Shown in pieces: positions 26,185-35,252 of a stretch of DNA of 64,000 bases (position 1 is its first letter; each line of letters begins with the position of its first letter). Below the pieces are notes generated by a model, which was not told the DNA's origin, made no database searches, and was given only the letters and a program-made list of their open reading frames with translations. Source of the stretch: Acidobacteriota bacterium (lineage in GTDB: Bacteria; Acidobacteriota; Terriglobia; Bryobacterales; Bryobacteraceae); assembly GCA_947470805.1 (NCBI GenBank), contig CANIVU010000024.1:1-64000 (forward strand), given 5' to 3'. The position numbers and the translations under genes were made by a program.

Positions 26185-29121
26185 ATGGAGGTTTGCTTGC
26201 TATCTGGAAAACGATGGATCTTGAACGGGTTGGCGCTGCTGGTGATGGCCGCGCCGGCTTACTCGCAAATAGAGGTGTACCACAAAACGGTTAGCGTGGA
26301 AGTGGGGAAGACGTATCAGTTTTCCTCTTACGTGCCGTTGTCGCCGAACACCGTTGTGTGGTCGGTGAATGGGATCGCGGGCGGAAACGCCGCGATTGGC
26401 ACGATTTCGAATACGGGTTTGTATGCGGCGCCGGCTGTGGCGCCGGTGCCGAGCGTGCTGGCTGTACGGGCAACGAGTACGGCGTATCCGGACAAGTTTG
26501 GTGAGGCGACGTTGACGGTGACGCGGCCGACGCCCTGGGTGTGGAGTGTGTCGCCTTCGCCGGTGCCGGCGGGGAATTTTTCGATCAGTTTGAACGGCGC
26601 GAACTTCAAGCCGGATGCGCAGGTGCGGTTGAACGGCATGGCGTTGACGACGGTTTATGTGTCGCCGACGTCGGTGAAGGCCAGCGGGAATGCGGTGGCC
26701 GGGGCGGGTTCGATTGCGGTCTATCTGCCGGGGCCGGGAGAGGTGACGAGCCAGGCGGTGACGGTGAGTTTTGTGACGCCGACGTTGACGGTTTCGCCGT
26801 CGAGCGCCTCGGTGGTGACGGGTGGGACACGCACGTTTACGGCGAATATGCCGGTGACTTGGACGGCTTCGGCGGGTTCTGTCTCCTTGGCTGGAGTGTT
26901 TACGGCGCCGGCGATGGCGGGGACGGTGACGGTGACGGCGAAGAGTGTGGCTGATCCTTCCAAGATGGCTATGGCGACCGTGACGGTGACGGCGCCACCG
27001 TTGACGATTACGCCGGTGAGTTCCACGGTCGCGCCGGGCGGAACGGTGACGTTCGCGGCGAATGCGGCGGTGAACTGGCAGGCTTCGGCGGGTTCGATTA
27101 CCGCGGCCGGTGTGTTTACGGCGCCGGCGATGGCTGGGGCGGTGACGGTTACCGCGGTCAGCATGGCCGATGCGACGAAGATGGCGACGGCTACCGTGAC
27201 AGTGGTGGCGCCGGCGATTACGATCACGCCGGCGAGTGTGACGGTGTTGACGGAGTCGGTGACGGCGTTTACGGCCAGTACGGCGGTGACGTGGCAGGCC
27301 TCGGCGGGTTCGATTTCGCCGGCGGGGGTGTTTACGGCGCCGTTGACGGCAGGGCAAGTTACAGTGACGGCGGTGAGCGTGGCGGACGCGACGAAGACGG
27401 CTACGGCGCTAGTGACGGTGCAGTTGCCAACGGTTTCGATTACGCCGCCATCGGGGACGGTGGGGATTGGCGGGACGCTGGCGTTTAGCGCCAATCTGCC
27501 GGTTATTTGGCAGGTGAACGGGATCGCGGGCGGGAATGCGGTTGTTGGGACGATTTCGGCCGCGGGTCTATATACGGCTCCGGCGGTGGTTCCTTCTCCC
27601 CCGACCGTGACGGTGCGGGCGGTGAATGCCAGCAATGCGGCGAGCTTCGCCACGGCGAGTGTCGTTGTCACTGGGCCGGCGCCTCTGGTGAGCCTGTTGA
27701 CGGCTGGCCGGTTACTGGAGCAGGCCGCGTTCGGCGGGCGTCCGGCGGATATCGTCAAGGTCCAGCAGATGGGTGTTGCCGGGTGGTTGGACGAGCAGTT
27801 CGCGCTGCCGGAGACGGCGATTCCGGATCAGGGGTCGACGGCTTCGCTGCGGGCTTGGGAGTTGAACAACTTCGTTCATGCGCCGGACCAGCTGCGGCAG
27901 CGGGTGCGGTATTCGCTGGGGCAGATTGTTGTTACTTCGTTGGGTAAGTTGAACTACGCCAATGAGATTCTGCCGTGGATGCGGGTTCTGCAGCGGAATG
28001 CGTTTGGGAATTACAGGACCTTGCTGCGGGAAGTGACTCTGAGTCCGTCGATGGGTAAGTATCTGGATCTGGCCAACTCCACCAAGCCGAGTGCGATGAG
28101 TGCGGCGAACGAAAATTATCCGCGGGAGGTGATGCAGCTATTTTCGATTGGGCTGTGGAAGCTGAACAACGACGGCTCGCAGCAGCTGGATGCCAACGGA
28201 CAGCCGATTCCCACTTACGATCAGGCGACGGTGCGGCAGGTGGCGCTGGCGCTGACCGGGTGGACCTATCCGACGGCGCCCGGTGGGACTCCGGGACTGT
28301 TGAATTGGGAGAACTTTACTGGCGACATGGAGCCGCGGCCGGCGTATCACGACACGACGGCGAAGGCGTTCCTGGGTTGTTCGCTCGCGGCGAATCAGAC
28401 GATTCAGCAGGATTTGGACGCGACGATTGATTGTCTGTTCCAGCATCCGAATCTGCCTCCGTTCATTGCGACGCGGTTGATCCGGAGTCTGGTGAAGAGC
28501 AATCCGTCGCCCGCCTACATTGCGAGAATTTCGGCAGTGTTTATCAACAACGGTCAGGGTGTGCGTGGCGATTTGAAGGCTGTCGTGCGGGCGATTCTGA
28601 CCGATGCGGAGGCGCGGCAGGATGTTCCCGATGCGACTTCGGGCCGGTTGAAGGAGCCGATCTATTTCATCTCTTCGTTTGTGCGGGCGATGAATGGGGC
28701 GGTCTCTTTGAACACCGGGATGGCGTATGTGTACGACAGCATGGGGCAATCGGTGCTGGCGCCGCCGTCGGTGTTCAACTGGTTCTCGCCGATGTACCGG
28801 GTCCCGAAGAGTCCGCTGTACGGGCCGGAGTTCCAGATTTATACGCCGACCGAGGCGTCGTTACGGGCGAATCTGGTGTATCAGATTCTGACGTCAAACG
28901 GCGGCGATGCGGTGGTGGATCTGACGAACTTCAACGCGGTGGCGGGGAACACGATGGCGCTGTTGGACGAGGTGGACAAAGTGTTTTTTTACGGGCGTAT
29001 GCCGGCTGGCGTGCGCACAGCCCTGACGAACGCGGTTACCGCCGCCTATGACAATAACCAACGCGTGCAGGCGGCGGTGTATCTGGCGGCGTTGTCCGGC
29101 CAGTACGCCGTGCAGTATTAA
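26185..29121 (+). CDS. Secreted DUF1800 protein with N-terminal Ig-like repeats
   Basis: A 978-residue exported protein. ATG 26185 is used; TTG 26197 is an alternative because GGAGG lies 5 bases before it. A signal peptide covers about residues 8-28 ('LNGLALLVMAAPAYSQ'). Residues about 30-500 hold several Ig-like (Big-2 type) domains, three of them nearly identical (see repeat at 26785). Residues about 503-978 are the DUF1800 domain ('LLTAGRLLEQAAFGGRPADI', 'NFVHAPDQLRQRVRYSLGQIVV', 'FIATRLIRSLVKSNPSPAYI'). DUF1800 proteins nearly always precede a DUF1501 gene, as here (18 bases). Function unsolved; probably periplasmic or surface. Confidence 0.88.
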   Translation: MEVCLLSGKRWILNGLALLVMAAPAYSQIEVYHKTVSVEVGKTYQFSSYVPLSPNTVVWSVNGIAGGNAAIGTISNTGLYAAPAVAPVPSVLAVRATSTAYPDKFGEATLTVTRPTPWVWSVSPSPVPAGNFSISLNGANFKPDAQVRLNGMALTTVYVSPTSVKASGNAVAGAGSIAVYLPGPGEVTSQAVTVSFVTPTLTVSPSSASVVTGGTRTFTANMPVTWTASAGSVSLAGVFTAPAMAGTVTVTAKSVADPSKMAMATVTVTAPPLTITPVSSTVAPGGTVTFAANAAVNWQASAGSITAAGVFTAPAMAGAVTVTAVSMADATKMATATVTVVAPAITITPASVTVLTESVTAFTASTAVTWQASAGSISPAGVFTAPLTAGQVTVTAVSVADATKTATALVTVQLPTVSITPPSGTVGIGGTLAFSANLPVIWQVNGIAGGNAVVGTISAAGLYTAPAVVPSPPTVTVRAVNASNAASFATASVVVTGPAPLVSLLTAGRLLEQAAFGGRPADIVKVQQMGVAGWLDEQFALPETAIPDQGSTASLRAWELNNFVHAPDQLRQRVRYSLGQIVVTSLGKLNYANEILPWMRVLQRNAFGNYRTLLREVTLSPSMGKYLDLANSTKPSAMSAANENYPREVMQLFSIGLWKLNNDGSQQLDANGQPIPTYDQATVRQVALALTGWTYPTAPGGTPGLLNWENFTGDMEPRPAYHDTTAKAFLGCSLAANQTIQQDLDATIDCLFQHPNLPPFIATRLIRSLVKSNPSPAYIARISAVFINNGQGVRGDLKAVVRAILTDAEARQDVPDATSGRLKEPIYFISSFVRAMNGAVSLNTGMAYVYDSMGQSVLAPPSVFNWFSPMYRVPKSPLYGPEFQIYTPTEASLRANLVYQILTSNGGDAVVDLTNFNAVAGNTMALLDEVDKVFFYGRMPAGVRTALTNAVTAAYDNNQRVQAAVYLAALSGQYAVQY
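26785..27432 (+). repeat. Three tandem 216-base repeats encoding Ig-like domains
   Basis: Units start at 26785, 27001 and 27217, each exactly 216 bases (72 codons), with 'TVTWxASAGSxxxAGVFTAP' and 'TVTAxSxADxxKxATAxVTV' in each. A fourth, diverged unit follows at 27433 and resembles the first Ig domain (both contain a 'NGIAGGNA' segment). Recent tandem duplication or homogenisation is likely, and copy number may vary between strains. Confidence 0.85.
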
Positions 29122-29139
29122 CGAAAGGAATCGAGACCA

Positions 29140-30462
29140 ATGAGCACTTTCTCCCGTAGAGATTTACTTCGAATGAGCGCGTTTAGCGCGATGAACGCGA
29201 TGGCGCAGTCGGGCGCGTCTGACTACAAGGCCATGGTGTGCGTTTTCCTGCTGGGCGGGAATGACGGCAACAACATGGTGGTGCCGATGACGCAGACGGA
29301 CTTTGATGCGTATAAGGCGATTCGCGGGAACCTGGCGTTGCCGGATAACTCCGCGAAGCTGTTGGCTGTGCAGAGCCTGGCGGATGGGAAGCCATATGGG
29401 TTGAACGACGGGCTGAAGGGAATTCAGCCGTTGTGGGGGCAGGGGAAGCTGGCTGTCGTGGCCAACATGGGCAATCTGGTGAAGCCCACCACGCGGGCTG
29501 AGTACCTGGCGAATGCCGGGCCGGTGCCGACGAACCTGTTTTCGCATTCCGACCAGACTTCGCAGATGCAGAGCGGATTTCCGAACACCGGGGCTGGCAC
29601 GGGGTGGGCCGGCCGGGTGGCCGATGCGGCGAACGCGATGAATGGGGCGGCGTCGTTCCCGGCGTCGGTTTCGATGTCGGGGCCGGCGCTGTTTTGTACC
29701 GGTGGCGTGGTGCAGTCGGCCAGTCTGATTCCGGACTACGACCTGTCGGTTTACGGCATGGATCTCTGGCCGGCGACGGCCGCGGCGGCACGGAAGACCG
29801 CGCTGCAGGAGTTGCTGACCTTCGACAGCGGCATGGCGATGGTGCAGGCGGCGAACAAGGTGCGGCAGGATGCGGCGAATCTGAACGCGATGTTGAAGGA
29901 CACCGGGGCGAGTCCGCCGTTGGTGACGGCGTTCCCGGGGACGTCGATCGGCCGGCAGTTACAACAGGTGGCCAAGATCATTCAGTTGCGTGGTGCGACG
30001 GGGATGAAGCGGCAGGTGTTCTTCTGTGCGCTGGGCGGGTTTGATCCGCACGGTTCGCAGGGCTGGACGCATTGGGATCTGTTGACCCAATTGGGCGACG
30101 CTTTGACGGCGTTCTACCAATCGACGGTGGACCAGGGCGTGGCTGGGCAGGTGACCTCGTTTACGCTGTCCGAGTTTGGCCGTTCGCTGCAGCCAAGCGG
30201 GAGCGGGAGCGACCACGGCTGGGGCAACCATCAGATTGTTCTTGGTGGGGCTGTGCAGGGTGGGCGAGTCTACGGTTCGTTCCCGGCATTCGCGTTGGGC
30301 GGCCCGAACGACTCCGGTTCGCGCGGTGTCTGGATTCCGACGACGGCGACCGACCAGTTCGGCGCGACGCTGGCAAGTTGGTTTGGGCTGACGGCCGGAC
30401 AATTGCCGGCGGTGTTCCCGAATCTGGGGAACTTTGCTCAGACGAACCTTGGGTTCGTCTGA
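29140..30462 (+). CDS. DUF1501 protein, Tat-exported
   Basis: A 440-residue protein of the DUF1501 family (alkaline-phosphatase/sulfatase-like superfamily). The twin-arginine signal SRRDLLRMSA lies at residues 5-14. Family segments include 'VFLLGGNDGNNMVVP', 'GGFDPHGSQ' and 'TLSEFGRSLQPSGSGSDHGWG', with the His/Asp metal-site pattern near the C-terminus. It follows the DUF1800 gene by 18 bases and AAAGGAA precedes its ATG; the pair is a conserved unit in Acidobacteria and Planctomycetes. Enzymatic activity is not established. Confidence 0.92.
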   Translation: MSTFSRRDLLRMSAFSAMNAMAQSGASDYKAMVCVFLLGGNDGNNMVVPMTQTDFDAYKAIRGNLALPDNSAKLLAVQSLADGKPYGLNDGLKGIQPLWGQGKLAVVANMGNLVKPTTRAEYLANAGPVPTNLFSHSDQTSQMQSGFPNTGAGTGWAGRVADAANAMNGAASFPASVSMSGPALFCTGGVVQSASLIPDYDLSVYGMDLWPATAAAARKTALQELLTFDSGMAMVQAANKVRQDAANLNAMLKDTGASPPLVTAFPGTSIGRQLQQVAKIIQLRGATGMKRQVFFCALGGFDPHGSQGWTHWDLLTQLGDALTAFYQSTVDQGVAGQVTSFTLSEFGRSLQPSGSGSDHGWGNHQIVLGGAVQGGRVYGSFPAFALGGPNDSGSRGVWIPTTATDQFGATLASWFGLTAGQLPAVFPNLGNFAQTNLGFV

Positions 30463-30478: not shown

Positions 30479-30506
30479 AAAAAAAGCGGGAGTTGGAGGC
30501 TCCCGC
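30479..30506 (-). terminator. Intrinsic terminator of the TPR gene
   Basis: GCGGGAG (30486-30492) pairs with CTCCCGC (30500-30506), 7-base loop. Read on the minus strand the stem is followed by seven T (complement of 30479-30485). It lies 28 bases after the TPR gene stop. Confidence 0.85.
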
Positions 30507-30533
30507 CATCGTTACAGAGGAATTGGATTGGTT

Positions 30534-32156
30534 CTATTCGAAGTAACCTTTTGCTAGTTCCGGTTTCACGTTGATCGCCTGGCGCCAGTAGGACTTGGCC
30601 TCTTCGTTGCGGCCTTGGGCTTTGAGAGCATGGCCGAGATTGAGGAGGGCTTCGGCGAACTGCGGGCGTTCGTTGATGGCTTCCTGATAGAGGCGGATGG
30701 CGTCGTCAAGCTGGCCGGATTTTTGAAGGAGAAGGCCGGTGTTGTAGAAAACTTCCGGTGAGCGTTCGCCGACGTCGATCAATTGGGCCTGGAAGTCGAG
30801 CGCCTTTTCGAAGTCTTCGCCTTCGACGGCGAGCCCGGCGAGTCCGCGCAGCGCTTCGACGGACTTCGGTTCCTGGGCGAGGAGCTTGTGGAACGTTTCA
30901 GAGGCGGTGGTGCGATTGCCGCTCTTCCATCGGGCGAGTCCGAGATTGATAAGGGCTTCCTTCCAATCCGCGCGTTTTCGCAGGCAGGTTTCGAAGGCTT
31001 CTTCGGCGCCTTTGTACTCATTGCGGTCGAGCCGGAGAAAACCGAGACGGAACCATGCTTCTTCCCAGTCGGCGTTCTTCGTCAGAAGTTTCTGGTAGAG
31101 TTTTTCGGCGTCTTCCTTCTGGCCTTGCATTTCAAAAACAGTGGCGAGGTTGAAGAGGACTTCGGGGAGATCGGGGGCAATGGTGAGTGCCTTTTCGTAG
31201 GCCTCCCGGGCGCCGGCCAGATCGTTCAATTCCTGCTTGACCGATCCGAGGTTGGAGAAGGCCTGTTTAGCATCGGGGCGGATGCGGAGCGCTTCAGTAT
31301 AGCCTTTGGCGGCCTGGTCGAGGCGGCCCAGTTTCTGGCTGGCGACAGCATAGTTGTACCAGCGTTCGTAGTGATTCGGCGTCAGATCCACCAGTTTCTG
31401 GCAGAGCTTGGCGGCGGCTTCAAAGTCGCCGCTCTGGAACGAGCACGTGGCCAGCCCTTCGAGTGCCGCCTGGGAGTACGGACGGAAGACGAGCAGTTGG
31501 TCGGAATACTGCCGAACCTGGTCATAGTCTTTGCGGGCGATGGAGATGGCGATGAGGTTGGTCAGCGCCTCTTCCGATTTCGGATTCGCGGCGAGCGAAT
31601 TCTGATAGATTTCGGCGGCTTCGTCGAAGCGCCACAACAGTTGCAGGGCGACGGCCTTGCCGAACTGTGCCGTCTCGTCGGACGGATTCTTCTTGAGGTA
31701 AACCTGAAACTCCTCGAGAGCGGGCTCCGGCTTTTCCAGATGCAGGAGGCAGATGCCGAGACCGAGGCGCGCTTCGGCCCGGTCGGGTTCGGCGGCGAGC
31801 GTGGCGGTGAACCCGTTCGCGGCGGACTCCCACTTGCCAAGCTTTTCGTGAGCAACGGCCTGATTGAACAGGGCGACGGTATTGTCCGGGGACAGTTCGA
31901 GTAACCGGCCGTACGTTTTCACGGCCTCGTCGTACTGTTCCAGTTCGCACTGCAGATGGCCGATTGCGGCCAGCATCTCGGGCTGTTCGCCATGGGTCCC
32001 AATGCCACTCTGCAATTCGCCGAGGGCTTCTTTCAGTTTGCCCTCCATGTGCAGCGCCACGGCGCGGCCTAAGACCGCGGCGGCGCCGTCGACGGGAGCG
32101 CCGGCTTGCCCGTTTCCTCCACGATTACCTGTACGAGAAGGTTGATTTTTGCTCAT
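30534..32156 (-). CDS. Large TPR-repeat protein
   Basis: A 540-residue protein made almost wholly of tetratricopeptide repeats (about 14, from residue 30 to the end), each with the A-L-G-Y-F-A-P pattern, for example 'YDEAVKTYGRLLELSPDNTVALF' split over helices. The first 25 residues are Gly/Asn/Gln-rich and disordered. There is no signal peptide or membrane segment, so it is a cytoplasmic scaffold. ATG 32156 (MSKNQ) is preferred; GTG 32165 is in frame. It lies 45 bases after the zinc-ribbon/transmembrane gene and is probably cotranscribed with it, suggesting the TPR protein binds it. Confidence 0.9.
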   Translation of the reverse strand: MSKNQPSRTGNRGGNGQAGAPVDGAAAVLGRAVALHMEGKLKEALGELQSGIGTHGEQPEMLAAIGHLQCELEQYDEAVKTYGRLLELSPDNTVALFNQAVAHEKLGKWESAANGFTATLAAEPDRAEARLGLGICLLHLEKPEPALEEFQVYLKKNPSDETAQFGKAVALQLLWRFDEAAEIYQNSLAANPKSEEALTNLIAISIARKDYDQVRQYSDQLLVFRPYSQAALEGLATCSFQSGDFEAAAKLCQKLVDLTPNHYERWYNYAVASQKLGRLDQAAKGYTEALRIRPDAKQAFSNLGSVKQELNDLAGAREAYEKALTIAPDLPEVLFNLATVFEMQGQKEDAEKLYQKLLTKNADWEEAWFRLGFLRLDRNEYKGAEEAFETCLRKRADWKEALINLGLARWKSGNRTTASETFHKLLAQEPKSVEALRGLAGLAVEGEDFEKALDFQAQLIDVGERSPEVFYNTGLLLQKSGQLDDAIRLYQEAINERPQFAEALLNLGHALKAQGRNEEAKSYWRQAINVKPELAKGYFE

Positions 32157-32201
32157 GTTACTCACTCTCTGCGTGGGTGGTTACGTCCGATCAAACAGAA
32201 G

Positions 32202-35066
32202 TCAATCAGATCCCTGTGTATGTATCGGCTGCGGAGCTAAAAAAGAACATAGCTTGCCAAAAAAGTCGTTCTGATGGGTGACGCGGATTCCGTATATGCG
32301 GGGGCGATCGTCGGGTCCGCCTACGAGCCCAACGCCTCCATCCTGCAATCTTGGGTCGTTGAACGTGTCGATGACCTGATCCTGCAGGTAGGTGGTGATG
32401 CTGTCACCGTGAACCTCCACACGGATGGCGTATAAGGTCTGATTGGCGCCTCCGTGAGGAAGCGGCAGCCTGGTGACCTTTCCGACGCGGCCGTTGATAA
32501 CCGTCCAGCGTTCCAGTTCCAATCGCGTGAGCGGGGCTCCGGGGGTGACGTTCAAGCGGGCGAAATGATAATTCTGCATGTTGGCGGCACGGACCATCCA
32601 CTGAATGGAATGGCGCTCGATAGACGCTTTCATTTCAAAGACATAGTCTTTCAAGCCAACACTGGGCTGGTAGATCGCCATATGGCCGGGGCGTACGGTT
32701 CCCGCGCGGTCATAAGACCAGGAACGGGCCCATTCGCCGCGACCATCCCAGGAACTGAGGCCATTACGGAAGTCTTCATTGAAATTGACGCTGGCACGGC
32801 TGGCGATGCGGGCGGTGAATGCGTCCCAGGCTGTCGGCTCACCCACTGGCGCAGGTTTTTCGGTACTGGGCTTCACTGGTGCGACCACGGGTTGCCGTTC
32901 TTCCACCGGAGGCGCCGCAACGGGCCGGACTGCGGCGAGTTCGGTTCGCTTGCCGGGCTCCTCTGGCGCGACTTCGGAAATCTCCTGCCGCTCGGTTACG
33001 GGGTGCGGCACGACTGGCTCCGCCGTGGATGGCCGTGCCAGTACCCAGATGCCGATGATCAGCGGAACGACCATGGTGATCCACTTGAGGTCCGAAGGGA
33101 GTAGTGTCGCTTTCCTCCACAACTCCTGAACGCCGCCGCTAGTGAAGCGCTCGTAAATCTCGCGGCCGAACTGCTGGGTCGTTTTGGGCGCCTTGCGCCG
33201 TTTGCCATCGTCGGCCACCAGGCCTGATGGGCGCATCGATGGGATTCCGCCCCAATCGCCGATTGCAAAATGGAGGGGTTTCCTGTTGCTGGGGCGCGCC
33301 ATTGGCTGCGCTCCGGGAACTTTGTAGAGCCGCACCGGCAGGTGTCGCAGCGAAAGTGGCCTCGCCGGCGCGGCCGGTCCGGGCAATGCAGCGTCCGGCG
33401 CGAGAATCAGATGGTCCGTCAACGGCAATGACTGGGTGGACGCGATGGCGGAGGGCGCCGAGAGGGGCACGCACTCCGCGGTGCCATACTTGCTGACCCG
33501 TTTCGCCGCGTGACGCGGCAGTCGGAGCCGGAGGACCGTCTGGAGCGCAGTGGGACGATAAATGGGCCGCTCCCCGGTCGCTAGATCCGGCCGCAGTTCA
33601 CAGGGAACGGCGCCGCCTAGCAGCAGTCCGTCGCCGAGGGCGCGAAGGCTGGTGGACGGCCGCAACTCCTGGACCGGACTGGGGAGCGGGGCCCGTGTGC
33701 TTCCGTTCGGTGCGACAACGGGGCCCGCCGGCCGAGGCGCTGTTAAGGCGACAATAGCCGCCGATTGCAGACTGGCGAAGTCCGGCGCGGGTGGGCGTGA
33801 GGGGTGGGCCGGGGGTGTGTTCGACTCTGCCCAGTCACCACTCCAATTCGCGGCAATTCGGCCGATGGCGAAACGTGGCGGGGCGACCTGCAGGATGGTG
33901 GATTCCGCCGCCAGGAGCCGTTCCGCGATCCATTCCGGGCGCGCGGGAACAACCCGCACCGGTTGGGTAGCGAGCAGCTTGGCGATTCGCTTTTGTGATC
34001 GGGCTACGTCCGGGGGCGCCGGCCTTCCGACGGGTTGAAGGGTGACGGCCGGAGCGAGGGCGACGGGGGCGAACTCTATGGCGACGCAGGCGGTGGCACT
34101 CGACGATTGGAAGTCGACCGTTTGCAGACGCGGCGCATCGGAATGAGTGGCAGGCTGTGGCGGCACCGGCTGTACCGTCGAGTACTGCGTTGCCGCCAGT
34201 AATGCTCCGAGCGGCTGGGACTCCATGGCCGCCCAGATCTTCTCATCCACAAAATCTTCCGGCAGTGCCGCGGCCAGCGTGATCGCCAGTTTGGGTGTAA
34301 GCGGGTAGCAAACCTGTGCGGCCGGTACTCCGAAGGGGTGGTCCTGCTGTTGCTTCGCCTTCTCTGACCCTTCATAGACGACGCCAGCCGCTCCGAGCGA
34401 TATCCGATCTGGTTGTGAGCAGGGCCGCAGTTGTCGAGGACGACGTTGGACCAAGCGGTTGATTCGGGTCACAGAAACATCGACGGGAAGCGACGATCCG
34501 CCTTTTTCTGCACTGGTCGCCGCGGCGGCGGCCGGAGCAGGCGGGGAAACCCGCTGCAACTGAAAGATAGGACTGAGCGACCGGGAGTGCCGGCTTTGGG
34601 ACGCAAACGTGCGCGGAAGCGCCACCCGCAACGAAGCCGATTGTCCTAGAACGGCTGCCTTCGGGGGCGGGATTGTCTTCGGCCGGAAGGGAATCCGGAA
34701 CGGGCGGGTCGAACGCGGAAACTCAAGTCGGAAGGTGTGCTCCCGGTCGCGGAACAGCACGATCGCGCCGCTGGCGATCGGTACTGCCGATACCTCGAGG
34801 CGGGGCCCAGGAACAGGGGCGAGTGGGTCCGGGCAGCGCTCCCCGACGCGGGACATGGTGGGGCCGTAAGGGGAAATCGGCGGGGGGGCGAGCGTCGCCG
34901 CGGGCATTCGCTGTGTCCGCTGCATGGAGGGAGTCGTATCGGTTAGCCGTTGCATGGCCAACTGCTGCTCTTCCCCGAATGCCTGCCGGTGCGCATCGGT
35001 GCAGAACGAAGCATCGTTCATTCGCCGCAGTAACGATATTGATTTATTGCAGTAGCGGCACCGCAC
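32202..35066 (-). CDS. 954-residue zinc-ribbon, disordered, transmembrane, lectin-fold protein
   Basis: Start is GTG 35066 with GAGGA 8 bases upstream. Residues 3-26 form a metal-binding knuckle C-x2-C-x15-C-x3-H (CRYC ... FCTDAH) like FCS/TRASH zinc fingers. Residues about 40-640 are Pro/Ala/Arg-rich and probably disordered. One transmembrane helix lies at about 661-680 ('LKWITMVVPLIIGIWVLA'). After a Pro/Glu/Val-rich linker, residues about 759-940 form a jelly-roll like the DUF1080/laminin-G fold ('NFNEDFRNGLSSWDGRGEW', 'YVFEMKASI', 'VHGDSITTYLQDQVIDTF'). This predicts cytoplasmic zinc finger, membrane anchor and external binding domain. I do not know this architecture; partner of the TPR protein downstream. 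Confidence 0.75.
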   Translation of the reverse strand: MRCRYCNKSISLLRRMNDASFCTDAHRQAFGEEQQLAMQRLTDTTPSMQRTQRMPAATLAPPPISPYGPTMSRVGERCPDPLAPVPGPRLEVSAVPIASGAIVLFRDREHTFRLEFPRSTRPFRIPFRPKTIPPPKAAVLGQSASLRVALPRTFASQSRHSRSLSPIFQLQRVSPPAPAAAAATSAEKGGSSLPVDVSVTRINRLVQRRPRQLRPCSQPDRISLGAAGVVYEGSEKAKQQQDHPFGVPAAQVCYPLTPKLAITLAAALPEDFVDEKIWAAMESQPLGALLAATQYSTVQPVPPQPATHSDAPRLQTVDFQSSSATACVAIEFAPVALAPAVTLQPVGRPAPPDVARSQKRIAKLLATQPVRVVPARPEWIAERLLAAESTILQVAPPRFAIGRIAANWSGDWAESNTPPAHPSRPPAPDFASLQSAAIVALTAPRPAGPVVAPNGSTRAPLPSPVQELRPSTSLRALGDGLLLGGAVPCELRPDLATGERPIYRPTALQTVLRLRLPRHAAKRVSKYGTAECVPLSAPSAIASTQSLPLTDHLILAPDAALPGPAAPARPLSLRHLPVRLYKVPGAQPMARPSNRKPLHFAIGDWGGIPSMRPSGLVADDGKRRKAPKTTQQFGREIYERFTSGGVQELWRKATLLPSDLKWITMVVPLIIGIWVLARPSTAEPVVPHPVTERQEISEVAPEEPGKRTELAAVRPVAAPPVEERQPVVAPVKPSTEKPAPVGEPTAWDAFTARIASRASVNFNEDFRNGLSSWDGRGEWARSWSYDRAGTVRPGHMAIYQPSVGLKDYVFEMKASIERHSIQWMVRAANMQNYHFARLNVTPGAPLTRLELERWTVINGRVGKVTRLPLPHGGANQTLYAIRVEVHGDSITTYLQDQVIDTFNDPRLQDGGVGLVGGPDDRPRIYGIRVTHQNDFFGKLCSFLAPQPIHTQGSD

Positions 35067-35129
35067 GCCAGATCCTCTTCAGGGGGCAAGCTCCCATCAC
35101 CAGCGTAGGACGGCTCCGCACCGATTACT

Positions 35130-35148
35130 ACACAGTGAATGACTGTGT
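35130..35148. promoter_or_regulatory. 7-bp operator-like dyad upstream of the zinc-ribbon operon
   Basis: ACACAGT-GAATG-ACTGTGT is a perfect inverted repeat 64 bases upstream of the GTG start. Nearby, AAGGG(n)TTCGCC occurs twice as a direct repeat at 35164-35175 and 35183-35195. The region also lies before the divergent dual-OB gene. Confidence 0.4.
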
Positions 35149-35252
35149 TTCAGCTAAGACCCTAAGGGATTCGCCGTTTTTCAAGGGGGTTCGCCTTAGA
35201 ATTGTCGCGTCGCAGAGAATTTTTCGGTCCGCCGCCCACTATTTCAGTAAGC

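Follow-up and report, generated by a model that had tools for sequence, protein, structure and literature searches.

A finger-bearing membrane protein and its TPR partner may form a so far undescribed envelope scaffold in Bryobacterales

The window analyzed here is a 64,000-nucleotide stretch of DNA from an Acidobacteriota bacterium of the order Bryobacterales. Two genes lie next to each other on its minus strand. The first (32202..35066, (-)) starts with GTG and encodes a 954-aa protein composed of an N-terminal finger, a long low-complexity region, a transmembrane (TM) segment and a C-terminal beta-sandwich. The second (30534..32165, (-)), 36 nt away on the same strand, encodes a TPR protein of 543 aa as the annotated ORF. 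An earlier reading made from the sequence alone (the sequence-only reading) had proposed an operon of these two genes, and both ORFs were confirmed at these coordinates. Since M4 is invariant in an alignment of five sequences (A2), the true start of the TPR gene is probably the ATG at 32156, which gives 540 aa. Comparison with the nearest named relative (L198, Candidatus Sulfopaludibacter sp. SbA3) gave dN/dS values of 0 in the finger (45 codons), 0.017 at residues 641-690, which include the TM segment, 0.022 in the TPR protein, 0.026 in the beta-sandwich and, higher, 0.24 in the 595-residue middle. These low values indicate that both ORFs are real genes, under strong purifying selection in the finger, TM segment, beta-sandwich and TPR protein (omega 0-0.026) and moderate purifying selection in the middle, which is therefore coding despite a poor codon-use score in an ad hoc gene caller. 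A terminator-like hairpin is located 3' of the TPR gene (30485..30507, (-)); seven such hairpins occur in the region versus 5.7 in shuffled sequences, which alone is weak support.

Upstream of the operon, a divergent DuOB gene identified by Pfam starts at 35202 and is followed by a PhoD gene. A DUF1800 and DUF1501 gene pair (Pfam; 26185-30462) lies downstream on the opposite strand. The flanking genes vary between genera: the DuOB protein and PhoD are found in the window's clade, and the neighbors in other genera include what we take, from their sequences, to be CarD-like and enolase-like genes. Because the neighbors are inconstant, genome context points to no process, and signaling via an adjacent regulator was dropped since the neighboring genes differ from genus to genus. 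Pfam returned no match for the long protein, and this membrane partner has no name in Pfam or NCBIfam.

A promoter dyad had also been noted. The dyad, ACACAGT-N5-ACTGTGT, is indeed present (35130..35148, no strand assigned) but is not conserved, as the exact 7-5-7 arrangement occurs only in the window and in one relative (L254) among 66 upstream regions. The chance of a 7-5-7 dyad in 135 bp is 0.8%, and 7% if any spacer of 0-10 is allowed. Overlapping its right arm is a conserved box (TTCACTGTGTAGTAAT, 35124..35139, (-)) that precedes the operon in many relatives. When scored on the same upstream sequences from which the motif was derived, TTYRCYGYGTAGTAWT is found with at most two mismatches in 29 of 66 regions versus none in 20 shuffle rounds, and with at most three mismatches in 32 of 66 versus 0.7 in shuffles. 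The box sits at -75 to -60 from the start codon in 29 of the 32 cases, flanked by CTAAGG-like and CCTACNATGG-like words (30 rows). We take the TTYRCYGYGTAGTAWT box as the probable promoter or operator of the operon. A regulon behind it was rejected, since the sole exact copy in the window's genome is the one at this operon; one further copy carries a mismatch.

The finger and its following helix occupy residues 1-45 (34932..35066, (-)). All 50 rows of alignment A3 have the proposed ligands C3, C6, C22 and H26, but the pattern used to choose these rows already demanded three Cys plus H or C, so that only the constancy of His at the fourth position, never Cys, is an independent result. F21, R40 and L41 are nearly invariant in the same rows. 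From its sequence, the finger would be expected to bind zinc. In the AF2 model it forms helices at residues 12-17 and 24-43, with strand content limited to single-residue bridges; the block pLDDT is 81-91 up to residue 40 and drops to 52-59 after it. It was initially read as a zinc knuckle, which does not hold: zinc knuckles (CCHC) are spaced C-x2-C-x4-H-x4-C, whereas the spacing here is C-x2-C-x15-C-x3-H. The probable treble clef DUF2116 (PF09889) weakly matches 17 of the 50 homologous fingers (best E 2.3e-4) but not the window's own finger.

One explanation starting from the finger is that the long protein is a membrane-tethered regulator of nucleic-acid machinery, in which a YacG/DksA-like finger would target gyrase or RNA polymerase, held or released by the TPR protein depending on a ligand of the outside domain. 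The finger shows no amino-acid change relative to L198 and is retained where the beta-sandwich is missing, as this explanation would have it. Foldseek with the finger returned seven rows that include YacG-gyrase, DksA2 and TraR-RNAP, but all are at noise level (best E 2.9; YacG E 7.6). Of the 21 Pfam families that matched one or more of the 50 fingers, none is YacG or DksA, in a search whose HMMER filters drop most weak matches. A YacG finger has four Cys ligands, whereas the fourth ligand is His in 50 of 50 rows here; it is Cys in a set of paralogs described below (type B). Moreover, no regulator gene is constant beside the operon among the clustered neighbors. We therefore consider such a regulator unlikely.

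The finger is followed by a long Pro/Ala/Arg-rich and poorly conserved region (IDR) at residues 46-640 (33147..34931, (-); omega 0.24). About 600 disordered residues had been claimed here. Length and low conservation agree with this, but the FoldIndex of +0.13 does not itself call disorder, which is suggested instead by the proline content of 14.5% and the divergence. The corresponding segments are 185-1127 aa long among 63 measured homologs. In 54 non-redundant IDRs, the gapped 3-mer G..LP was enriched (53 versus 21.6); this and similar signals were weak. No correlation was seen between the net charges of IDR and TPR protein (r = -0.15, 62 pairs).

A single membrane helix, as proposed earlier, was found at residues 659-677 (33036..33092, (-); mean KD 1.78), at a P-x-DLKW juxtamembrane motif; P-x-DLK[WLF] precedes the TM segment in 20 of 75 homologs. 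A segment with KD of at least 1.6 lies before the beta-sandwich in 52 of the scored loci that bear this domain, and K/R residues around it prevail N-terminally in 32 loci and C-terminally in 11, with a tie in nine. This charge bias would place the N-terminus inside and the beta-sandwich outside. The claim of a transmembrane protein with an external domain is supported only in part: 13 of 15 homologs of one group (Solibacter-type) have no such segment, and three in another family (L113, L114 and L277) reach at most 1.26. The KD threshold of 1.6 is crude and misses about ten window-type homologs whose helix is visible by eye, so that the absence of a TM segment in the Solibacter-type group rests on low KD and inspection, with no dedicated predictor.

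The C-terminal domain (residues 761-954; 32205..32786, (-)) is a predicted concanavalin-A-like beta-sandwich of the CBM66/galectin/GH16 type, based on AF2 (mean pLDDT 85.7), Foldseek and VIA-align. Foldseek reached E values of 1.2e-7 with kappa-carrageenase and CBM66 in the top rows. VIA-align placed CBM66 first (4azz_A, Z 17.7, rmsd 2.9 over 154 residues, 16% identity; best other family 16.2). The modeled domain therefore has the CBM66 fold, known from the levanase of Bacillus subtilis (4azz, 4b1l and 4b1m), but differs from that domain in sequence (16% identity; profile E only 0.1) and in setting, as CBM66 sits in an enzyme whereas the window's domain ends a membrane protein. Across the PDB sequence searches of this analysis as a whole, no match was significant (best E 0.039, 0.061 and 0.1). 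The earlier label "DUF1080-like" is right as to the class of beta-sandwich, since 3-keto-disaccharide hydrolase/DUF1080 (PF06439) shares the concanavalin-A-like fold class (VIA-align to 9fbe_A: Z 14.8, rmsd 2.9, 159 aligned), but not as to family membership. The PF06439 gathering score of 26.8 bits was not reached: the window's domain has no match, one of 59 homologs matches with E 0.0047, and two of four further paralogs score 13.5 and 18.5 bits. By analogy of the modeled fold, the ligand of this lectin-fold domain may be a glycan.

The TPR protein consists of 15 contiguous, ungapped 34-residue TPRs at residues 28-537 (30555..32084, (-)), one more than the 14 originally counted. It belongs to the TPR family (PF07719, PF00515 and relatives), with a TPR_2 score of 196.1 bits versus a gathering cut-off of 27; its score for the XrtA/PEP-CTERM protein PrsT (TIGR02917) is 165.1 bits, below the equivalog cut-off of 312.2. 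As expected for a cytoplasmic-type partner, it has no export signal, and a hydrophobic N-terminus is lacking in 76 of 76 homologs. Conservation is 0.681 at the groove positions (2, 5, 9, 12 and 13), 0.686 at the structural positions and 0.553 at the others (one-sided Mann-Whitney p 5e-10; 77 sequences of this TPR family alone). Groove positions that are conserved like fold-determining ones, next to an IDR that diverges, suggest that the groove may bind segments of the partner. However, part of this conservation may reflect helix packing, to which groove positions contribute in any TPR, so it is weaker evidence for binding. The contrast between IDR and TPR protein would fit many short, degenerate binding segments.

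To analyze the pairing, we took the best 80 of 109 relatives, fetched by the TPR sequence alone. In all 80 loci, an ORF with the finger and/or the beta-sandwich lies directly upstream of the TPR gene on the same strand. The search for the full architecture was successful in 65 of them, where this ORF has both domains; two have the finger only, nine have the beta-sandwich and run into a contig end, and four have the beta-sandwich without an in-frame finger. The finger is thus present in 67 of the 71 loci whose 5' end is on the contig, counting L276, where it matches at frame position 338. Among the four loci without it, two have the finger in a separate piece (L200 and L203, genomes G002 and G005), and none was found in L210 and L273. 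The TPR gene is in two pieces in L255, counted once, and broken in L273, where the second piece has no direct partner. The sequence-only reading would have been contradicted by homologs that, in most genomes, had no finger or no TPR gene; these loci show the opposite. In a second set, which overlaps the first in genomes and was in part originally fetched via the beta-sandwich, a partner is found beside 80 of 83 TPR frames, and the other three (L097, L107 and L115) are at contig ends. Finger partners without a beta-sandwich match occur in both sets, in seven of 80 (L113, L114, L159, L173, L185, L189 and L195) of the second and two of 80 (L249 and L252) of the named loci, which indicates that the core can do without the outside domain.

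Within the order, the TPR profile is found in 166 of 250 genomes and 64 of 84 genera, with one to four copies per positive genome, and the beta-sandwich profile in 164 genomes and 63 genera. Both are present in 162 genomes and neither in 82; four have only the TPR protein (G397, G456, G531 and G546) and two only the beta-sandwich (G006 and G361). The co-occurrence gives a Fisher p of about 3e-58, with kinship ignored. Of 297 genomes sampled evenly across the phylum, three carry the TPR protein at a strict threshold (E <= 1e-110), with about four candidates scored per genome; these three belong to the window's family and include the window's genome itself. Nearly all named loci are labeled Acidobacteriota (Bryobacterales, Bryobacteraceae, Solibacter, Sulfopaludibacter, Terriglobia or unspecific); two stand under Bordetella parapertussis and Acidimicrobiia, which we take as mislabeled MAG records. 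The beta-sandwich at 1e-5 is found in 15 of the 297 genomes, 12 of them outside the window's family and scoring at most 51.7 bits. We inspected nine such outside loci. Three encode exported-looking proteins with repeats, recognized by eye, followed by a weakly related beta-sandwich (L284, L286 and L290), and the protein of L291 resembles them. Pfam identified PEGA domains in both that were examined (L286 and L290). These PEGA-domain proteins of other Acidobacteriota share a weakly similar C-terminal beta-sandwich with the window's protein but, unlike it, have a hydrophobic N-terminus by eye and PEGA domains, and no finger was seen in them.

The homologs fall into several architectures. The window type (A) has frames of 431-1510 aa with a beta-sandwich. 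A 1930-aa homolog with a very long IDR (L252, 1021-6810) has the finger and the TPR neighbor and no beta-sandwich match. Type B is a paralogous operon, found in genomes that also have type A; its finger is C-x2-C...C-x3-C, and in the window's genome it is located at C30. In five loci (L066, L105, L106, L109 and L110), the B operon is followed by a gene that resembles CpaE/MinD by eye; it has no Pfam match at 1e-3 (L110), and we did not build on this reading. Type C is a standalone finger-TM-beta-sandwich protein (frames of 329-349 aa) with no TPR gene directly downstream; a copy is at C93 in the window's genome. C-type paralogs (L065 7130-8116, L095, L101 and L102) lie in a syntenic block, divergent from a conserved alpha/beta-hydrolase-like gene, a member of which (L098) has a Pfam match to ABHD18.

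These variants bear on whether the TPR protein is nothing more than a dedicated chaperone of a long, aggregation-prone partner, with the membrane-anchored lectin-fold protein as the working part. The strict pairing would be expected of such a chaperone, the IDR that it would serve has diverged far more than the TPR protein itself, and the standalone paralogs of about 330 aa, which have no long IDR, also have no TPR gene directly downstream. However, the TPR protein is retained with partners that have no beta-sandwich (L113, L114, L249, L252 and others), which argues that this domain is not the sole working part. We regard this explanation as quite improbable.

In another family of the order (f3), the TPR gene stands beside a gene for a protein with the finger and an acidic IDR (type D, frames of 563-712 aa). 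These proteins have no TM segment (L113, L114 and L277; best KD 1.07-1.26), and the two tested (L113 and L114) have no beta-sandwich. A separate gene on another contig encodes the TM segment and the beta-sandwich, with no finger found in its product. The TPR protein and the beta-sandwich occur in the same three of 18 f3 genomes, so that domains fused in the window are split in f3 yet kept together. The TPR gene of G053 has one in-frame stop. In all three f3 loci (L114 6992-12925, L113 6624-12281 and L277 3444-9057), the pair comes immediately after genes for ATP synthase subunits a, c and b; Pfam confirmed a, c and b in L114, a and b in L113 and b in L277, and the others were recognized by eye. 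This position is what a part of the F0 ATP synthase or of its assembly would show. However, the corresponding clusters (c57-c59) are absent beside A-type and B-type loci among the clustered neighbors, drawn from short contigs, and 82 of 250 genomes, which presumably also need ATP synthase, have neither the TPR protein nor the beta-sandwich. A role in ATP synthase is thus highly implausible. The last variant (E) comprises the Solibacter-type homologs, a working label, as six of the 15 bear the name Solibacter. Their frames are 523-612 aa and keep the beta-sandwich, and the two with a segment above the threshold (L257 and L262) have an Ala-rich one with KD 1.95 and 1.69.

Together, our results suggest that the gene pair encodes an envelope scaffold of two proteins, apparently undescribed so far. 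Finger, IDR and TPR protein seem to form its core, while the membrane helix and the lectin-fold domain appear common but dispensable. Since the former three are the most constant parts, we favor a cytoplasmic scaffold, anchored in most lineages, over a simple receptor. We then propose a tentative model, specific to the order. The superhelical groove of the 15 TPRs in the cytoplasm would bind linear segments of the partner's flexible region, and the treble-clef-like finger with its helix may offer a second docking point for some cytoplasmic ligand. In most lineages, one helix would fix the scaffold to the inner membrane with the N-terminus inside, and the lectin-fold beta-sandwich outside may hold or read an envelope glycan or protein. 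Weighing against this model are the Solibacter-type proteins, which have a beta-sandwich but no clear TM segment, the uncorrelated net charges of IDR and TPR protein and the modest topology bias (32 versus 11, with nine ties); we also count the finger partners without a beta-sandwich against it.

The long protein invites comparison with GltJ/AgmX of the Agl-Glt gliding machinery in Myxococcus xanthus, which is said to have a cytoplasmic N-terminal zinc finger, a flexible linker, one TM helix and a periplasmic part, and whose finger reportedly docks a cytoplasmic partner. The likeness is an analogy of design. GltJ/AgmX reportedly combines a zinc ribbon with GYF, whereas the finger here is treble-clef-like with C-C-C-H ligands, and it is said to have neither a lectin-fold domain nor an invariant TPR neighbor gene, unlike the window's pair. 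A bolder version of the scaffold model, which we find doubtful, is an envelope organizer found throughout Bryobacterales, a membrane-attached scaffold or condensate whose outside lectin-fold domain would tie it to the wall or capsule and whose parts would be mixed freely around the finger-IDR-TPR core.

With its domains, operon structure, conservation and co-occurrence established, the module is real, widespread and so far unnamed in one bacterial order. Its folds are known; among the literature matches listed, we found neither their combination nor the protein pair described. The split in f3 and the variants without the membrane or lectin part could separate the cytoplasmic core from the envelope role. 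With paralogous operons in one genome, the pair of 15 TPRs and an IDR could also serve as a test bed for how flexible regions remain matched to repeat proteins when only one of the two diverges.
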